This document shows positions 3,417-41,799 of a DNA stretch of 64,000 nucleotides, piece after piece. The stretch covers positions 86,656 to 150,655 of the forward strand of contig JAFWJF010000008.1 of the NCBI GenBank assembly GCA_017511715.1, in the 5' to 3' direction. Under the pieces are notes generated by a model. That model did no database searches. It worked only from the letters and a program-made list of their open reading frames with translations, and was not told the DNA's origin. Positions within the stretch are counted from its first letter, which is position 1; each line of letters starts with the position of its first letter. The position numbers and the translations under genes were made by a program. The stretch is from Alphaproteobacteria bacterium (GTDB lineage Bacteria; Pseudomonadota; Alphaproteobacteria; Rs-D84).

Positions 3417-4160
3417 ATGAAAAAAGCACTTAAAAAAAGATTAAGACGTTTTTTTAGATTCTTTTATGGATGGGGCGTGATTCAATGGATTTTGGCCGTC
3501 GTTTATTATGTCCTTATATGGTTTGTGTATTTTACATCAAAAAAAGATATTAAAGGTTTGGAAATTTTACGCAAATATGCACAAAAACCCGCTATTTTTG
3601 TGTTTTGGCATGGGCGAACAATGATGCTGTCCCCGGTAATCGCGCTAAATCGTGTGCATGGGTATGCTATTGCAGACAGCAAAAAAGACGGTCGTGCGAT
3701 TGCTAAAATGGAGAAATTGTTTGGTCTTCGGACTATTTATGGTTCGTCTGATGGGGGCGGTGTAAATGTTCTGAAACGCGGTATAAGCGTTCTGAATAAA
3801 GGTAAATATTGTTTGGCTTTGTCGCCGGATGGCCCAAATGGTCCGTCTATGCGGTTTCATGATGGGGCGCTGTATTTTGCCAAGATGACTGGTGCGCCTA
3901 TTATTCCGGTTTGTTATTCGTCTTCGCGTCCTTGGTTCCAAAACCGATGGGACAGATATTTATTGACTAAACCTTTTTCGATTATTGCAGGGACAGTTGG
4001 CGAACCTATATTTATTGATCGCCGCACAAAAACAGAAGATTTCGAGAAAATTCGTAAAAACCTGGAAGATATTATGGTTAAACAGGCTTATGATTTGGAC
4101 AAAAGGTTTACTGATTTTAGGGTAGAGCAAGACTTAACACCTGAAAATTTCAAGCAGTAA
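3417..4160 (+). CDS. Lysophospholipid/lipid A-type acyltransferase, DUF374 family
   Basis: A 247-residue membrane-anchored acyltransferase. A basic N-terminus precedes a hydrophobic segment (about residues 17-40). The DUF374/LPLAT motifs follow: FWHGR near 65, a DSKKDGRAIAKM stretch, then LALSPDGPNGPSM near 140, with conserved PIIPVCYSSSRPW. In Alphaproteobacteria this family usually sits beside lpxK or kdtA and is thought to act on lipid A or envelope lipids. It is the first gene of an operon with lpxK (9-base gap), lpxC and a lipoprotein. The exact acyl acceptor cannot be read from sequence. Confidence 0.75.
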   Translation: MKKALKKRLRRFFRFFYGWGVIQWILAVVYYVLIWFVYFTSKKDIKGLEILRKYAQKPAIFVFWHGRTMMLSPVIALNRVHGYAIADSKKDGRAIAKMEKLFGLRTIYGSSDGGGVNVLKRGISVLNKGKYCLALSPDGPNGPSMRFHDGALYFAKMTGAPIIPVCYSSSRPWFQNRWDRYLLTKPFSIIAGTVGEPIFIDRRTKTEDFEKIRKNLEDIMVKQAYDLDKRFTDFRVEQDLTPENFKQ

Positions 4161-4169
4161 GGGCATTTC

Positions 4170-5096
4170 ATGAAAACACCAAAATGGTTCTTGAAAAGAA
4201 ATGTTATAGCGTGGGCTTTGACGCCGCTGTCGTTGTTTTACCTGATGGGCAGCAAATTTGTTTTCAATATGCGCAAAAAGCGTGAATATATATCGCGCCG
4301 CCCGATAATTTGTTTCGGAAATATTTTGTCTGGTGGCGTTGGCAAAACACCAATAGTTCGTAATGTCGCAAAATACTTTGATGCGCCGGTGGTTATGCGC
4401 GGATATAAAAAGTCAAAAGAAACAGCAGGTATAGGGGACGAAGCAAAGATGTTGTCAAATGATAATATCTTGGTGCATGTTGGAAATCGGAAAAGCAATT
4501 TGATTTTATTAAACAAACAAAAATCAAATACACCGATTATAATGGATGACGGTTTTCAGAATTCCGCTATAAAAAAAGATATATCTGTGTTGGTGTTCGA
4601 TGAAGCCATTGGTTTTGGAAATGGTTTTTTGTTGCCGGCTGGACCTTTGCGCGAGAAAAAAAATGCGCTATTGCGCGCTGATGCAATAATAGTTATTAAA
4701 AGAAAACACGCACAACCTGATTTTTCTTTGCCTATAAATATACCGGTGTTTTATGCAAAAAATACTGAAGTGTGTCCGTATGATAAAAATACATCAGTGA
4801 TTGCTTTCGCTGGTATCGGGTATCCTGAAAAGTTCTTTGATAATGTCCCGTGCAAAATAGTTGAAAAGATTCCTTTCCCAGACCATTATCAATATGGCGA
4901 TGAAGATATAAAAAAACTTATAGATTTGGCAAAAAAGAAAAACGCAAAATTGTTAACAACTGAAAAAGATTGGGTGCGTTTGCCAAAATGGGCACAGAAA
5001 GAAATAAAGTTTTCTGCATTGCAAACAGAAATAGAAAGTAAGTTTTATGATTGGTTAAAAGGAAAGGTAAATGAAATCAATAGCAAAAAAAATTAA
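4170..5096 (+). CDS. lpxK: Tetraacyldisaccharide 4'-kinase LpxK
   Basis: LpxK phosphorylates the 4' position of the lipid A disaccharide at the inner membrane. The 308-residue protein has an N-terminal membrane-associating helix (ALTPLSLFYLMGSKFVF), a variant Walker-type loop NILSGGVGKTPIVR near residue 52, and the family motifs DDGFQN (about 127), PAGPLREKK (about 150) and TTEKDWVRLP near 272. The length is normal. It overlaps lpxC by 26 bases in another frame, which suggests translational coupling. It lies in a lipid A operon without lpxA/B/D. Confidence 0.92.
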   Translation: MKTPKWFLKRNVIAWALTPLSLFYLMGSKFVFNMRKKREYISRRPIICFGNILSGGVGKTPIVRNVAKYFDAPVVMRGYKKSKETAGIGDEAKMLSNDNILVHVGNRKSNLILLNKQKSNTPIIMDDGFQNSAIKKDISVLVFDEAIGFGNGFLLPAGPLREKKNALLRADAIIVIKRKHAQPDFSLPINIPVFYAKNTEVCPYDKNTSVIAFAGIGYPEKFFDNVPCKIVEKIPFPDHYQYGDEDIKKLIDLAKKKNAKLLTTEKDWVRLPKWAQKEIKFSALQTEIESKFYDWLKGKVNEINSKKN

Positions 5097-11452: not shown

Positions 11453-12658
11453 ATGAAATCGAAAATAATAATGACCTCTATGGTCGGTTTGGCGTTTGCG
11501 ATGCCGGCATTCGCGGCGCCAAGTAAAACTTCCGAGACTTTTCCACAAAACGGTCAGATGCAGGAAGACACTAAATACATAGGTCAGGCAACACAAACGA
11601 ACCTGCACTCATACGAAGGACCGGTGACAGCAACCGCAAATTATACGGACACACCTTATACCGTAACGGCGGGAAATTATTTACCAATGTCATCGGAAAC
11701 GGTTGCACAATGTACCAGCGGTAATTATTGTCCGGGAATAAGTGGCACAGTAAATTACAGCACGTCAGCGAATCAAGGTTTAACCGCATGTCCAAATGGA
11801 TATGGCGCATCAGATTTGGGCGCAAGTGAAGATACACAATGTTATCGTTCGTGCAACAGTGCATATATAGGTAGCACTATCACCAGCACACCTGGTATAG
11901 CCCATGCAGACGGTATGGCAGGGAATGATTATTATGGTACTGGCACCGACACTTGTTATCCAACATCATGTGTTGCCGGCTGGCATTTGCGTACAGGGAA
12001 TTTCCTGCAAGATACAATCGGCCGCTCACATAACGTAAACTCGAGCTATGCTTATCAAAATGGCACTGGCGATGCTGGTTTTAACCAAAACACATACGGA
12101 ATAACGCAGAATAATGAATTTGTGGTAGATTTTGGCGAAAAAGGTAAAATACACGGATATGCCAAATGTAGCAATGTGGAAGGAACGAATAATAATGGGA
12201 CATGGACAAATCCAACGATATTAACAAACGCCCAAATAGGTACAGAAGCTGGTCGATACTGTTATTGTCATCTTGATAGTTATACCCCCGCTGGTAATGA
12301 CCAAACAATGCAGAGCTTGTCTTTGCCGTGGGTGTTCCACGTCGACAGGGGTGGCGCGGACGCTTGCGCGAGCGACTGTGCGTACAGATGTGTGTTTTCA
12401 ATTGATGAAACTAATGGCAGTTCTGATAGACTTTTTGCCTTCCGTGAAGCAGTTTTTGGTTTGTTTGATAGGTCTGGCTCAACATGTGATGCGAATGTTA
12501 TTTCTATTACATGGGATGGAGCGGACCAAACCGATATTGATGCGAATAATGCGGGACAATGCACATACGGTGGCGATATTAACACACCGAAAAAGGCTGT
12601 TCATGTTCCTGGAAAAACATTTGTCGGTTGGACATTCGACACACCAAGTGGAAACTAA
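11453..12658 (+). CDS. Secreted Cys-rich protein with GW-type C-terminal repeat, paralogue 1
   Basis: A 401-residue exported protein, the first of five paralogues in the window. The signal peptide ends AFA near residue 21. The family layout is: a Tyr/Ala-rich N-terminal module (ATANYTDTPYTVTAGNYLP), a Cys module (CTSGNYCPG, then ACPNGYGASDLGASEDTQCY), CYPTSC..GWH, a variable middle, a CYCHL and CASDC segment, and a C-terminal YGGDI..TP..VPGKTFVGW block resembling a Listeria/Bacteroides (InlB B-type) repeat. These modules suggest a disulfide-bonded surface or secreted protein. It lies after the pilus genes and has a structured leader; the link to that machinery is only positional. Confidence 0.7.
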   Translation: MKSKIIMTSMVGLAFAMPAFAAPSKTSETFPQNGQMQEDTKYIGQATQTNLHSYEGPVTATANYTDTPYTVTAGNYLPMSSETVAQCTSGNYCPGISGTVNYSTSANQGLTACPNGYGASDLGASEDTQCYRSCNSAYIGSTITSTPGIAHADGMAGNDYYGTGTDTCYPTSCVAGWHLRTGNFLQDTIGRSHNVNSSYAYQNGTGDAGFNQNTYGITQNNEFVVDFGEKGKIHGYAKCSNVEGTNNNGTWTNPTILTNAQIGTEAGRYCYCHLDSYTPAGNDQTMQSLSLPWVFHVDRGGADACASDCAYRCVFSIDETNGSSDRLFAFREAVFGLFDRSGSTCDANVISITWDGADQTDIDANNAGQCTYGGDINTPKKAVHVPGKTFVGWTFDTPSGN

Positions 12659-36426: not shown

Positions 36427-37611
36427 ATGGAAAAAAATTTTTTGTTAACCAGTATGGTGGCGTTGGGTTTTGCAATGCCTGCATTTGCTGAAACTTTTCC
36501 GGCTGATGGATTGATGGGTGAAAACAAAACCTATGAAAATGCTGCAATCTATGACAATATGGGCGTGTATGACGGCACTGTTAATGCAGAGGCAGAATTT
36601 GTAGATGATGCGATTGCGCTTTCGCCGGGGGAATATTTGGCTGGGGGTTCAGACTCTGCTACGGCGACGGTGTGTTCAGCGGGTTATTATTGCCCTGGTT
36701 CTGTTGATTCTGTTGTTAATGACGGTACTGACCACGGTATGATTCAATGTCCAACTGATTATACTTCTGATTCTGGTGCAAGTTCGATTCTTCAGTGTTA
36801 TCAAACCTGCAATCTTGCTGATTTTCCGCATGCTTCTGCGGTGTCTGGCGGTTATTATGCTTTTGGTGCGGAATCATGTGCGGCAACATCGTGTGATTCT
36901 GGCTGGCATTTAGCAGATGTTGCATCCGTTGATAGTTCTTATGGTTGTGGTGTTAACAGTGAGGTTTCTCCTTATATTAGTATGAGTTCAGAAGCGTGGG
37001 CCTGTTCACCTAGTGTTAGTTCTGGCACCGATTCCAGTGTCGATTCTGGAACAAGTGTAAATTCTAGCGTTCCGTCTTCTGTTGGTTCCGGGACGATTCC
37101 GGGCAGATGGTCGGTTGGTTATAGTAATTATGCGCTTCGTGGTATGGCGCGCCTTAGCAGTACGTCTGGGTACGAAGCTACTCTTTCTAGCGACCCAAGC
37201 ACGACATCGACATCGAATTTGGGGGTTGAAGGCGGTGGTGGCCATTGTTGGTGCAATATAGTGGGATACAGAAGCGCTGACAGCCAGTGGTATGCGGTGG
37301 CTTCTTCTCCTTGGACATACGCGGGCAGTGTCGACACTGACAGCAACGCGCTTGGGAGTTGTGCAGCCCTTTGTGTCAACTTCATGGGCAATACTGGCGA
37401 GAAGGCGATAAGATTCCGTCGCACGATAAGAGGAGATGGGAGTGTTGTTAAAAGAATTTGTTCGCCAAATAAAATCACAATTAATTGGAGTAATGCAAGT
37501 CTAAGTCGGAGTGTGGTTGATTATAACGGCGATATTAAAACACCGGCCTCTGCAAAAGACATCCCGCTGGGAAAGAAGTTCAAGGGGTGGAAATTCAGCA
37601 CAGCAAATTAG
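36427..37611 (+). CDS. Secreted Cys-rich protein, paralogue 2
   Basis: 394 residues. The ATG at 36427 follows AAAGGAGAAAGGA; a longer frame starts in the promoter. The signal peptide ends AFA (residue 21). Modules: TFPADGLMGENKTYENAAIYDNMGVY-type N-terminus, CSAGYYCPG, CPTDYTSDSGASSILQCY, CAATSCDSGWH, a Ser/Val-rich variable stretch (about 200-240), CWCNIVGY, CAALCVNFMG and the C-terminal GDIKTP..PLGKKFKGWKF block. From about 36811 to 37490 the DNA matches paralogue 3 closely, but the differences are almost all amino-acid-changing. Probably surface exposed and under diversifying selection. Confidence 0.75.
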   Translation: MEKNFLLTSMVALGFAMPAFAETFPADGLMGENKTYENAAIYDNMGVYDGTVNAEAEFVDDAIALSPGEYLAGGSDSATATVCSAGYYCPGSVDSVVNDGTDHGMIQCPTDYTSDSGASSILQCYQTCNLADFPHASAVSGGYYAFGAESCAATSCDSGWHLADVASVDSSYGCGVNSEVSPYISMSSEAWACSPSVSSGTDSSVDSGTSVNSSVPSSVGSGTIPGRWSVGYSNYALRGMARLSSTSGYEATLSSDPSTTSTSNLGVEGGGGHCWCNIVGYRSADSQWYAVASSPWTYAGSVDTDSNALGSCAALCVNFMGNTGEKAIRFRRTIRGDGSVVKRICSPNKITINWSNASLSRSVVDYNGDIKTPASAKDIPLGKKFKGWKFSTAN

Positions 37612-37625
37612 TGCGCACTTTCAAC

Positions 37626-37660
37626 AAAAGGCCATCCAAATGGATGGCTTTTTGTTTTTT
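37626..37660 (+). terminator. Terminator of paralogue 2
   Basis: GCCATCC / GGATGGC hairpin with AAAT loop, then a long T-rich tract. Confidence 0.8.
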
Positions 37661-37700
37661 TTATAATAAAGGAAATTTGTTGCTAAACAAAAAAATATAT

Positions 37701-37729
37701 TTGCAATCGATATATCAAATGTGTTAGAC
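37701..37729 (+). promoter_or_regulatory. Promoter of paralogue 3
   Basis: TTGCAA, 17 bp, TTAGAC, 20 bases before the ATG. Confidence 0.55.
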
Positions 37730-37749
37730 TTCTTAGAAAGAGGAAAGAA

Positions 37750-38955
37750 ATGGACAAAAAACCACTGTTAACAAGTATGATTGCGCTGGGATTTGCGGTG
37801 CCTGCGTTCGCGGAAACTTTTCCGGCAGACAAATTAATGGGCGAAAACAAAGTCTATGAAAACGCCGCAATCTATGACAATATGGGCGTGTACGAAGGTG
37901 TTGTGTATGCAAACGCGGTGTACACAGACGCCGCATATAGTGTTTCGTTCGGTGAATATTTGCCTATGAATTCTGCAGATGTTGCAGGGTGTTTGAATGG
38001 GTATTATTGCCCTGGGTTTGTGGAACCTGTTAATTTTAGTTCATCAAATGACCAAGGCTTAACAAAATGTCCAACCGGATATACCTCTGATAGTGGTGCA
38101 AGTTCGGTTCTTCAGTGTTATAAAACCTGCGATGTTGCTGATTTTCCGCATGCTTTGGCGGTGTCTAATGGTTATTATGCTTTTGGTGCGGAATCATGTG
38201 CGGCAACATCGTGTGATTCTGGCTGGCATTTAGCAGATGTTGCATCCGTTGATAGTTCTTCTGGTTGTGGTGTTAACAGTGAGGTTTATCCTTATTTTGC
38301 GGTGAGTTCAGAAGCGTGGGCCTGTTCACATAGTGTTAATTCTGGCACCGATTCCAGTGTTAGTTCTGGAACAAGTGTAAATTCTAGCGTTCAGGCTTCT
38401 CTTGGTGACGGGGCGATTCCGGGTATGTGGTCGGTTGGTTATAGTGATTATGCGCTTCGTGGTATGGCGCGCCTTAGCAGTACGCGTGGGTACGAAGCTA
38501 CTCTTTCTAGCGACCCAAGCACGGCAACGACATCGTATTTGGGGGTTGAAGGTGGTGGTGAACATTGTTGGTGCAATATAGTGGGATACAGAAGCGCGGC
38601 AAGCCAGTGGTATGCGGTGGCTTCTTCTCCTTGGACATACGCGGGCAGTATCAGCGATGACAGCAACGCGCTTGGGCGTTGTACGACCCTTTGTGCCAAC
38701 TTCATGGGCAATACTAGCGAGAAGGCGCTAAGATTCCGTCGCACGATAAGAGGAGATGGGAGTGTTGTTAAAAGAATTTGTTCGCCAAATAGAATCACAA
38801 TTCATTGGAATGGAACAACCTCGCAATACGTTAATGCGAATAATGCGGGAACCGCCCAATACGAAGGTGATGTTCGGACACCTGTTATGGCAACACCGCG
38901 TCCAGGAAAGATATTCCAAGGGTGGCAATTCAGCAGGACTGCTCTGTCGGAATAA
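37750..38955 (+). CDS. Secreted Cys-rich protein, paralogue 3
   Basis: 401 residues, with a signal peptide ending AFA and the same module order as paralogue 2. The start (TFPADKLMGENKVYENAAIYDN) and residues from about 128 to 355 are nearly identical to paralogue 2, while the CLNGYYCPG segment and the C-terminus (NGTTSQYVNANNAGTAQYEGDVRTP) look more like paralogues 1, 4 and 5. This mosaic pattern suggests duplication with later recombination. About 31 codons differ non-synonymously against about four synonymously in the central 175 codons shared with paralogue 2 (counted by eye). Confidence 0.75.
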   Translation: MDKKPLLTSMIALGFAVPAFAETFPADKLMGENKVYENAAIYDNMGVYEGVVYANAVYTDAAYSVSFGEYLPMNSADVAGCLNGYYCPGFVEPVNFSSSNDQGLTKCPTGYTSDSGASSVLQCYKTCDVADFPHALAVSNGYYAFGAESCAATSCDSGWHLADVASVDSSSGCGVNSEVYPYFAVSSEAWACSHSVNSGTDSSVSSGTSVNSSVQASLGDGAIPGMWSVGYSDYALRGMARLSSTRGYEATLSSDPSTATTSYLGVEGGGEHCWCNIVGYRSAASQWYAVASSPWTYAGSISDDSNALGRCTTLCANFMGNTSEKALRFRRTIRGDGSVVKRICSPNRITIHWNGTTSQYVNANNAGTAQYEGDVRTPVMATPRPGKIFQGWQFSRTALSE

Positions 38956-39178: not shown

Positions 39179-40426
39179 ATGAACAAAAAATTAATATTAA
39201 CAAGTATGCTGGCACTTTGTGCAGTGGGACCAGCGATGGCTATCACCAATGTGCAACTGGCAGACTATCCAGAAGACGGTATCGTAAAAGAAGACAAACG
39301 TTATCTTCAGGCGGCAACAAAAGACAAATTGGACGGGGTATATGAAGATGTTGTTTATGCGATTGCAGAATATGGTCCAATGGCTATTGCGGTGCCTGCC
39401 GGTGAATATTTGCCAAGAAGTCAAATTGACACAGTGGCATGTTTAGCAGGATATTATTGCCCAGGATCCGTAGGTTCTGTTGCATATAGCGAAACCGAAG
39501 ATCAGTTGCTGACCGCGTGTCCTGCCGATTATACTTCCGATGCCGGTGCCGAATCAAAAGCACAGTGTTATACGAATTCTGGTTGTGCAACCGTTAGAGG
39601 TGCATCAGGGATGACTGGGCACAATTATTGGGGGACCGCGTTCGATACATGTGAACCAACTGCGTGTGAACAGGGTTGGACTAAAACAGCCCATACCGAT
39701 GGTATAAGTGGTTCTGAATTGTATAAATTAGCAGGTAGTAACGGTTCTGATATTGTGTCTGCAACAGCAACAGCAGGTTCGCTTCCAGCAAACGCAATCA
39801 ATTTCTATTCGGGATTTGAAGCCGGTGGTTGGGGAATGAATTTTTCTGTTGATCAACAAGGCAGAATATTATCTGTATATGGTTCGTCATATTGTTCTTA
39901 TGATACAAGGGGTACAACCAACTATCAATCTGAAGCACCATATACGCTGACACAATCAGAAATCGAATCCTCGGGTCCTGGTAATGCGTGTTTCTGTAAA
40001 TTGAGCGCATATAAAGACAGTGCGAACGGCAATACATGGACAAATTTGTATTCTAATTGGTTGTATGCGGAACAATTTGGTTCAGGTTCTTGTGATTCTT
40101 CTTGTTCTGCAAAATGTGCAGAAGTTGTAAGACTTGCCAAAGATTCAAGCTATGTTAATTGGAGTAATGCATTGTTTAATGCGGCATCTGGGACAGTGTT
40201 GGCGCGTTGCGATGCTAATGTTATCAAGGTTAAATGGTATGGCACAACGCTTGCAAATGTCACAACAAATGAAGCAGGCACTGTCACATATGGTGGCAAT
40301 ATCAATACGCCTGTTGCGGCAGATGCATCACAAACACCGCGTGGAAAAGTGTTCCGTGGATGGAAATTCAGCAAAACTGTGCCATCAGATATACCGCAAG
40401 GTGTGCAACTGGCAAACCCAGACTAA
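39179..40426 (+). CDS. Secreted Cys-rich protein, paralogue 4
   Basis: 415 residues with a signal peptide ending AMA (residue 21). Family modules: YPEDGIVKEDKRYLQAATKD, VPAGEYLPRSQ, CLAGYYCPG, ACPADYTSDAGAESKAQCY, CEPTACEQGW, a divergent Gly/Ser-rich middle, CFCKLSAY, SCDSSCSAKC, and the C-terminal KVKWYGTT..NEAGTVTYGGNINTP..RGKVFRGWKF block. The last block is close to paralogue 5 at DNA level (AATGGTATGGCAC region), again pointing to exchange of C-terminal modules between copies. ATG after AAGGAAGGGAAAA. Confidence 0.75.
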   Translation: MNKKLILTSMLALCAVGPAMAITNVQLADYPEDGIVKEDKRYLQAATKDKLDGVYEDVVYAIAEYGPMAIAVPAGEYLPRSQIDTVACLAGYYCPGSVGSVAYSETEDQLLTACPADYTSDAGAESKAQCYTNSGCATVRGASGMTGHNYWGTAFDTCEPTACEQGWTKTAHTDGISGSELYKLAGSNGSDIVSATATAGSLPANAINFYSGFEAGGWGMNFSVDQQGRILSVYGSSYCSYDTRGTTNYQSEAPYTLTQSEIESSGPGNACFCKLSAYKDSANGNTWTNLYSNWLYAEQFGSGSCDSSCSAKCAEVVRLAKDSSYVNWSNALFNAASGTVLARCDANVIKVKWYGTTLANVTTNEAGTVTYGGNINTPVAADASQTPRGKVFRGWKFSKTVPSDIPQGVQLANPD

Positions 40427-40530: not shown

Positions 40531-40560
40531 AGTGTATACAAAGAGATTTTGCAGGAAGGG

Positions 40561-41799
40561 ATGATAAACAGAAAATCATTATTTACCAGTGTGTTTGCGT
40601 TGGGCTTGGTTTGCCCGGCGCTTGCGGTGGTACCAGAAGACCACAGGGTTGCTTTTCCGGCTAATAAACTTATGCTGGAAAATTATGAATATATCAATGC
40701 CGCCGTGCGCGATAATATGGACGGCGTATATGAAAACAATGATACAGTGTATGCTATCGCGCAATACGAAAAAATATTGTATGATGTTTTGGCTGGGAAA
40801 TATTTGCCCGCTGGCGCAACAGAAGCGGCAGATTGTACAGATGGTAATTATTGCCCCGGAATCGCAGATGGTGCTATGTATGATGAAACCAATAATCAGG
40901 GCTTGGAAAGTTGTCCTGATGGATATGCGCATTCTGATACGGGCGCAAATGCAAATACCCAATGTTATCGTTCTTGTAATATCGCAAATATGGGAACCGG
41001 TGGTTCTGTTGCAAATATTGAACACGCAACCGCATTAACTGGTAATGATTATTATGGCGGTATGGGCGATGGTTATGATACATGTGAACCATCAGAATGT
41101 GTCGAAGGTTGGCATTTGAAAACGCGCTCTGGTGTTTCTGAAATAACCAGTCAGTCATCTGTTACTGGTGTGAATAGCGCGATTATGCCCGATGGCGAAT
41201 ACAGTTTTCGGGAATATACTGGTGGTTCAGCATCCACGCATGATGCAACGTATTATGGTTTAACCGAAGGAACATGGGCGGTAGAATTTTCCAATGCCAG
41301 CACTGGTCGTGCCGCGATTGTGCGTGGAACTGCGCGTCTTAGCAAGGTAAATGGTTCGGTTAATGGCAGCACAAGAACAACCTTGACACAACTGGGGGCC
41401 GGTGGCGGAAATAATTGTTATTGTAAATTGACTGCATATCAAGAAATAGGTTCTTGGCATAATGTATCTTCTCCATGGGTGTATTTAGGATATGGCAACA
41501 CTGCGGAAGAATGTTTCCAGTATTGTGCAAATAGTGTTCGTGAGGTCGCTTCAAGTGATTTCAAGACCGCGTTGTTTAATGCCGCCTTTACACCAGCGAG
41601 TTGCGAAGCAAATGTGATTAAAGTTAAATGGTATGGTACAACTTTGACAGATGTTACAACAAATAATGCAGGCACTGTCACATATGGTGGCGATATCAAT
41701 ACGCCTGTGAAAGCCACAGTGCCACGCGGTCAGGTGTTCCGCGGATGGCGCTTCAGCAAGACGCAACCGGCAACAGGGACACCCGCAAATCCAGATTAG
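40561..41799 (+). CDS. Secreted Cys-rich protein, paralogue 5
   Basis: 412 residues from the ATG at 40561 (AGGAAGGG upstream; a TTG at 40549 is the alternative). The signal peptide ends ALA. Modules: AFPANKLMLENYEYINAAVRDNMDGVY, LAGKYLPAG, CTDGNYCPG, SCPDGYAHSDTGANANTQCY, CEPSECVEGWH, a variable middle, CYCKLTAY, CFQYCANS and the C-terminal KVKWYGTT..YGGDINTP..PRGQVFRGWRF block. Last of four tandem copies, each with its own promoter and terminator, so the copies can be expressed separately. Confidence 0.75.
   Translation: MINRKSLFTSVFALGLVCPALAVVPEDHRVAFPANKLMLENYEYINAAVRDNMDGVYENNDTVYAIAQYEKILYDVLAGKYLPAGATEAADCTDGNYCPGIADGAMYDETNNQGLESCPDGYAHSDTGANANTQCYRSCNIANMGTGGSVANIEHATALTGNDYYGGMGDGYDTCEPSECVEGWHLKTRSGVSEITSQSSVTGVNSAIMPDGEYSFREYTGGSASTHDATYYGLTEGTWAVEFSNASTGRAAIVRGTARLSKVNGSVNGSTRTTLTQLGAGGGNNCYCKLTAYQEIGSWHNVSSPWVYLGYGNTAEECFQYCANSVREVASSDFKTALFNAAFTPASCEANVIKVKWYGTTLTDVTTNNAGTVTYGGDINTPVKATVPRGQVFRGWRFSKTQPATGTPANPD

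Follow-up and report, generated by a model that had tools for sequence, protein, structure and literature searches.

Tandem secreted paralogues that differ mainly by amino-acid-changing codons carry a domain that is a retroelement target in related genomes

Two neighbouring genes, here called A and B, lie in the 64,000-nucleotide stretch of alphaproteobacterial DNA analysed in this work (the window). Over a block of 226 codons the two differ almost entirely by changes of meaning, so that the question raised by the locus is what process would alter the proteins so often while leaving silent sites nearly untouched. The reading of the pair as secreted tandem paralogues, made in an original prediction from the DNA, is supported by codon alignment, family search and signal-peptide-like starts. 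The features on which the argument draws are as follows; VR denotes the variable repeat and TR the template repeat of diversity-generating retroelements (DGRs).

36427..37611, + strand: gene A, a secreted family protein of 394 aa with ATG at 36427 (codon alignment, family search, signal-peptide-like start)
36427..36489, + strand: signal-peptide-like N-terminus of gene A, MEKNFLLTSMVALGFAMPAFA, judged from its AxA-type end
36774..37488, + strand: putative homogenised tract in gene A, with few silent differences; its gene B partner is 38094-38808 (differences at offset 1320, identical runs)
36811..37488, + strand: gene A block with 36 nonsynonymous and 4 synonymous codon differences from gene B (codon alignment, omega and site-class tests)
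37300..37446, + strand: part of gene A homologous to the DGR VR of relatives (VR profile 2.1e-25; aligned with 19 template repeats)
37750..38955, + strand: gene B, 401 aa, tandem paralogue of gene A with a signal-peptide-like start
38131..38808, + strand: gene B partner of the block 36811-37488 (codon alignment, omega and site-class tests)
38620..38766, + strand: part of gene B homologous to the DGR VR of relatives (VR profile 2.6e-23; template-repeat alignment)
39179..40426, + strand: gene C, third tandem family member (family search, VR profile)
40549..41799, + strand: gene D, fourth tandem family member; ATG at 40561 is a likelier start than TTG at 40549
11453..12658, + strand: further family member in the window, apart from the tandem array (family match at G000:C5:98111-99295)

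Aligned by codon, the two blocks show no gaps, and the 40 differing codons divide exactly as the original prediction had estimated (about 36 changing meaning, about four silent). The 54 nucleotide differences fall on the three codon positions as 25, 18 and 11. Codons with two or three base changes, of which several had been remarked, number 12, against 4.0 in neutral simulation (maximum 11 in 5,000), while silent codons number 4 against 10.2 (P=0.018). Runs of identity between the differences reach 91, 63 and 48 nt, in agreement with the long identical blocks first described. The stretch originally marked out was about right, since the alignment ends just after 37488, past which genes A and B can hardly be aligned at all, although it was slightly short on the 5' side and lies inside two larger genes.

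Farther upstream, at 36427-36642, silent changes make up 21 of the 41 differing codons and omega is 0.24, as expected of ordinary constraint. Because silent divergence is low inside 36774-37488 and high outside it, a tract of about 710 bp appears to have been homogenised or exchanged recently, perhaps by gene conversion between the tandem copies; this upholds the earlier proposal that recent duplication or conversion keeps the remainder identical. Mixed-strain assembly is an unlikely cause, with the tandem genes on a single 169-kb contig of a source genome of 845 kb that is 97% complete and has 0% estimated contamination. Donation by other paralogues of the genome was considered and rejected, only A and B matching each other at the DNA level and the rest being far too divergent. 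An allele search of IMG/VR found no copy of the A/B sequence among viral contigs, and a scan of genome contigs with gene B alone as query gave no match. Overlapping antisense ORFs of 116 aa were also considered as a cause of frozen silent sites; they share their wobble position with the sense frame, and so leave the pattern unexplained.

Genes A and B are read as having a cysteine-rich N-terminal region, a variable domain, and a tail that resembles InlB repeats. The variable domain matches no family above cut-off in Pfam, NCBIfam or PHROG, and no sequence relative was found in PDB. Among 385 sampled genomes of the class, the domain occurs in this genus only, a genus of gut Alphaproteobacteria with genomes of about 0.9 Mb that is probably Candidatus Enterousia of the order Rs-D84. 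According to a published account, such bacteria probably live with other cells as symbionts or parasites (PMC12306168). The source organism, judged from its named relatives, would be an uncultured alphaproteobacterium of the ruminant gut. Its genome has 13 places that match the domain, mostly full-length family genes, and relatives have up to 26. The C-terminal tails of several members weakly match the InlB B-repeat or Listeria-Bacteroides repeat (PF09479, PF18998; best E 0.00086), but in A and B the matches listed are missing or fall short of the curated cut-off (PF18998 in gene B, 12.9 bits against 23.6; gene A, no match). Genes C and D are more distant family members. They share a 113-nt stretch that is 86% identical (40202-40314 and 41596-41708) just past the variable domain, a pattern opposite to that of A and B, with similar tails and different variable domains. 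Elsewhere, one IMG/VR contig encodes a 1669-aa protein ending in the variable domain plus tail (L124:828-5837); this contig is classed as viral, and bacterial genes are abundant on it. In several relatives a small secreted protein, cysteine-rich and related to the N-terminal region of the family (L066:4987-5577, with similar ORFs in L010, L013 and L015), is positioned between target and TR or adjoins family genes.

DGRs, and the excess of nonsynonymous variants that they leave in VRs, are well known, and remote targets are said to be missed (PMC8144416). Matches to the reverse transcriptase (RT) model RVT_1 occur in 51 of 156 genomes of the genus. Across 23 RT loci we identified 21 TR/VR pairs of 77-151 nt. 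Template adenines account for 277 of their 290 mismatches, and 102 of these 277 changes are A to T; mutation affects 53% of the adenines in the templates. By profile, the domain of A and B is present at nearly all of these loci, one exception being a pair without a domain match at L163, and 37300-37446 is therefore the homologue of a DGR VR. The VR profile that matches genes A and B also matches VRs and TRs of the relatives. In three genomes (G033, G032 and G073) a family gene adjoins the template repeat and reverse transcriptase, and several paralogues of another (G090) bear the NNC codon signature of AAC template codons. At L161 (1891-3400 against 4145-4277), a single open frame of 683 aa contains two VRs, both matched by one TR, with mismatches at template adenines in 13 of 13 and 18 of 18 cases. 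The cassettes of G033 and G073 include an ORF of 108-117 aa just upstream of the RT (L066:6075-6401; L086:1793-2146, reverse strand), which has no significant Pfam or PHROG match and may be a new accessory protein.

The domain is also common where the retroelement is not seen. Of 76 genomes that carry it and are at least 90% complete, about 46 lack an RT match, among them one that is a single contig at 99% (G003). RT presence and copy number may be inversely related, a suggestive pattern based on match counts that mix in fragments. Compared with DGR target proteins, A and B belong to the same family and have the same variable domain as targets that sit beside a TR, accessory ORF and RT; they differ in belonging to a genome without detectable RT or TR, in changes that lack an adenine-directed signature, and in divergence reaching about 490 nt farther upstream than the VR. 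At one locus of the source genome (L045, G000:C4:38495-41758), a slot between a VirB11-like ATPase and a PriA-like gene holds two small VR-domain proteins and no RT or TR; in G073 the same slot has a resident DGR.

The differences between A and B could be a footprint of retrohoming from a common template, left before the RT was lost or with the RT left unassembled. In favour of this, DGRs of the genus target the domain, omega peaks in the VR-equivalent part, and variation at adenine sites is three times that at thymine sites (0.23 against 0.075). Yet the adenine excess is found upstream of the VR as well, while in other paralogue pairs the asymmetry lies mainly within the VR; codon usage of exposed residues, or adenine-directed mutagenesis in the past, could explain it. 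In the source genome, RVT_1 gave 0 matches, a DGR RT protein query found nothing, and none of the 13 profile matches is a free-standing TR, although the same search recovers the TRs of G033 and G073. With completeness at 97%, the remainder of the genome could contain a DGR. So far as the assembly reaches, homology and the codon pattern are shown for the genes, as is the absence of RT and TR from the genome. With 19 TRs of relatives defining the columns, TR-adenine columns show no enrichment of differences (3 of 22, against 8 of 110 elsewhere; P=0.39). Of 10 AAC codons, 7 are the same in A and B, some of them in non-template states, so mutated codons are common to both genes. A/T pairs make up 3 of 37 adenine-containing differences (8%), against 37% in the true pairs (P=3e-4), and 23% of adenine sites differ, against about half of template adenines mutated in the true pairs. 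Most of the differences, moreover, lie before the VR, where no TR of the relatives reaches. Retrohoming as the source of these differences was rejected on the lack of RT and TR, the lack of enrichment, the proportion of adenine sites and the mismatched spectrum, and we regard it as unlikely. The suggestion of targeted variation in the original prediction thus holds to the extent that the domain is a target of mutagenic retrohoming in relatives, and fails for the A/B differences themselves.

What selection has done was assessed from two sequences, A and B. A single omega for the whole block is 1.81, not significantly above 1 (p=0.13); it is 5.5 for the VR-equivalent part (p=0.04), and 1.27, indistinguishable from 1, in the segment upstream of the VR, where ten other paralogue pairs give 0.04-0.55 against the 1.2-1.3 of A and B. 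Site-class models separate the block far more sharply. The comparison of M1a with M2a gives an LRT of 25.6, with 23% of codons at an omega of 18.6 and 77% near 0; restricted to the segment upstream of the VR, the LRT is 17.4, and for the N-terminal control it is 0.19, and the largest value in a null parametric bootstrap of 45 sets was 5.3. The strong diversifying selection first proposed, with a dN/dS above 1 in a formal test, is therefore backed firmly by site classes and weakly by plain omega, which exceeds 1 without significance.

Near-neutral drift after duplication, in which structural residues alone are kept, would account for the upstream omega of 1.27 being indistinct from 1. Such relaxed constraint is nevertheless quite improbable: M1a, with its neutral and constrained classes, fits far worse than the model with a fast class, multiply hit codons are three times as many as the 4 expected, and both genes are intact with their cysteines conserved. 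The site-class test is sensitive to multi-nucleotide mutation, which may inflate the LRT, and the adjacent differences, 13 within codons and 3 across, are near the split from random adjacency. Multi-nucleotide mutation, or patchy recombination with unsampled alleles, could mimic selection through clustered changes, as differences do cluster at short distance (29 gaps of 6 nt or less, against 20.9) and three of the four silent changes adjoin an amino-acid-changing codon, but we think it very unlikely, for changed codons are not significantly clustered (15 against 12.6, P=0.22), silent codons are still too few, and the genome's other paralogues are too divergent to be donors.

A model of the domain (pLDDT 84.6, pTM 0.67) predicts the VR as a strand followed by two cysteine-containing helices. 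Foldseek found no match to it at E<=0.001, and a fold search with the full-length model of gene A (pTM 0.40) found none. The best VIA match of the domain model is an oxidase-like fold (Z 4.2, rmsd 5.3, 93 aligned); no C-type lectin is among the matches listed, though the domain may still be of that kind. The C-type lectin fold is the one usually reported for DGR variable proteins (PMC8144416, PMC6328139). A and B resemble such proteins in carrying variable residues on the C-terminal part of a scaffolded domain, but differ in the predicted strand and two cysteine helices of the VR, and in that no solved fold was recovered.

We consider it rather probable that A and B carry a domain of the DGR-target type without a detectable DGR, homogenised between the copies and then diverged by point substitution under diversifying selection. 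The central to C-terminal domain is the one that other species of the genus hypermutate through DGRs, a DGR having presumably been lost in the source lineage. Gene conversion or recent exchange would have homogenised the domain tract of about 710 bp between the tandem copies; ordinary point substitutions, with diversifying selection on roughly a quarter of the domain codons, would then have separated them, while a scaffold of cysteines and of aromatic and hydrophobic codons stayed frozen. Without the retroelement, conversion would keep the tandem copies similar and selection would part their exposed codons. The product may be a secreted or surface binding protein with an exposed face pressed to differ between copies, the varied codons presumably being the exposed ones; a ligand-binding protein, on the surface or secreted, would fit at least as well as the surface antigen first proposed.

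In tandem antigen and adhesin families under diversifying selection, secreted paralogues lie side by side, blocks are homogenised, amino-acid changes are in excess and the same codons are hit repeatedly. Genes A and B share these traits, and differ in being built on a retroelement-target domain. More tentatively, the domain might be an undescribed, genus-restricted hypermutable one with a helical, cysteine-anchored variable part, common to active DGRs and to many copies in genomes without a DGR, where amplification, homogenisation and selection at the level of point changes would replace mutagenesis.

Through the DGR-target domain, a conspicuous codon pattern can be tied to a specific biological system. 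Because the genus has the same hypermutable domain both with and without a resident retroelement, the fate of DGR targets after RT loss is directly testable in it. The domain itself, for which the family and structure collections searched gave no match, may be one more scaffold able to withstand very extensive variation.
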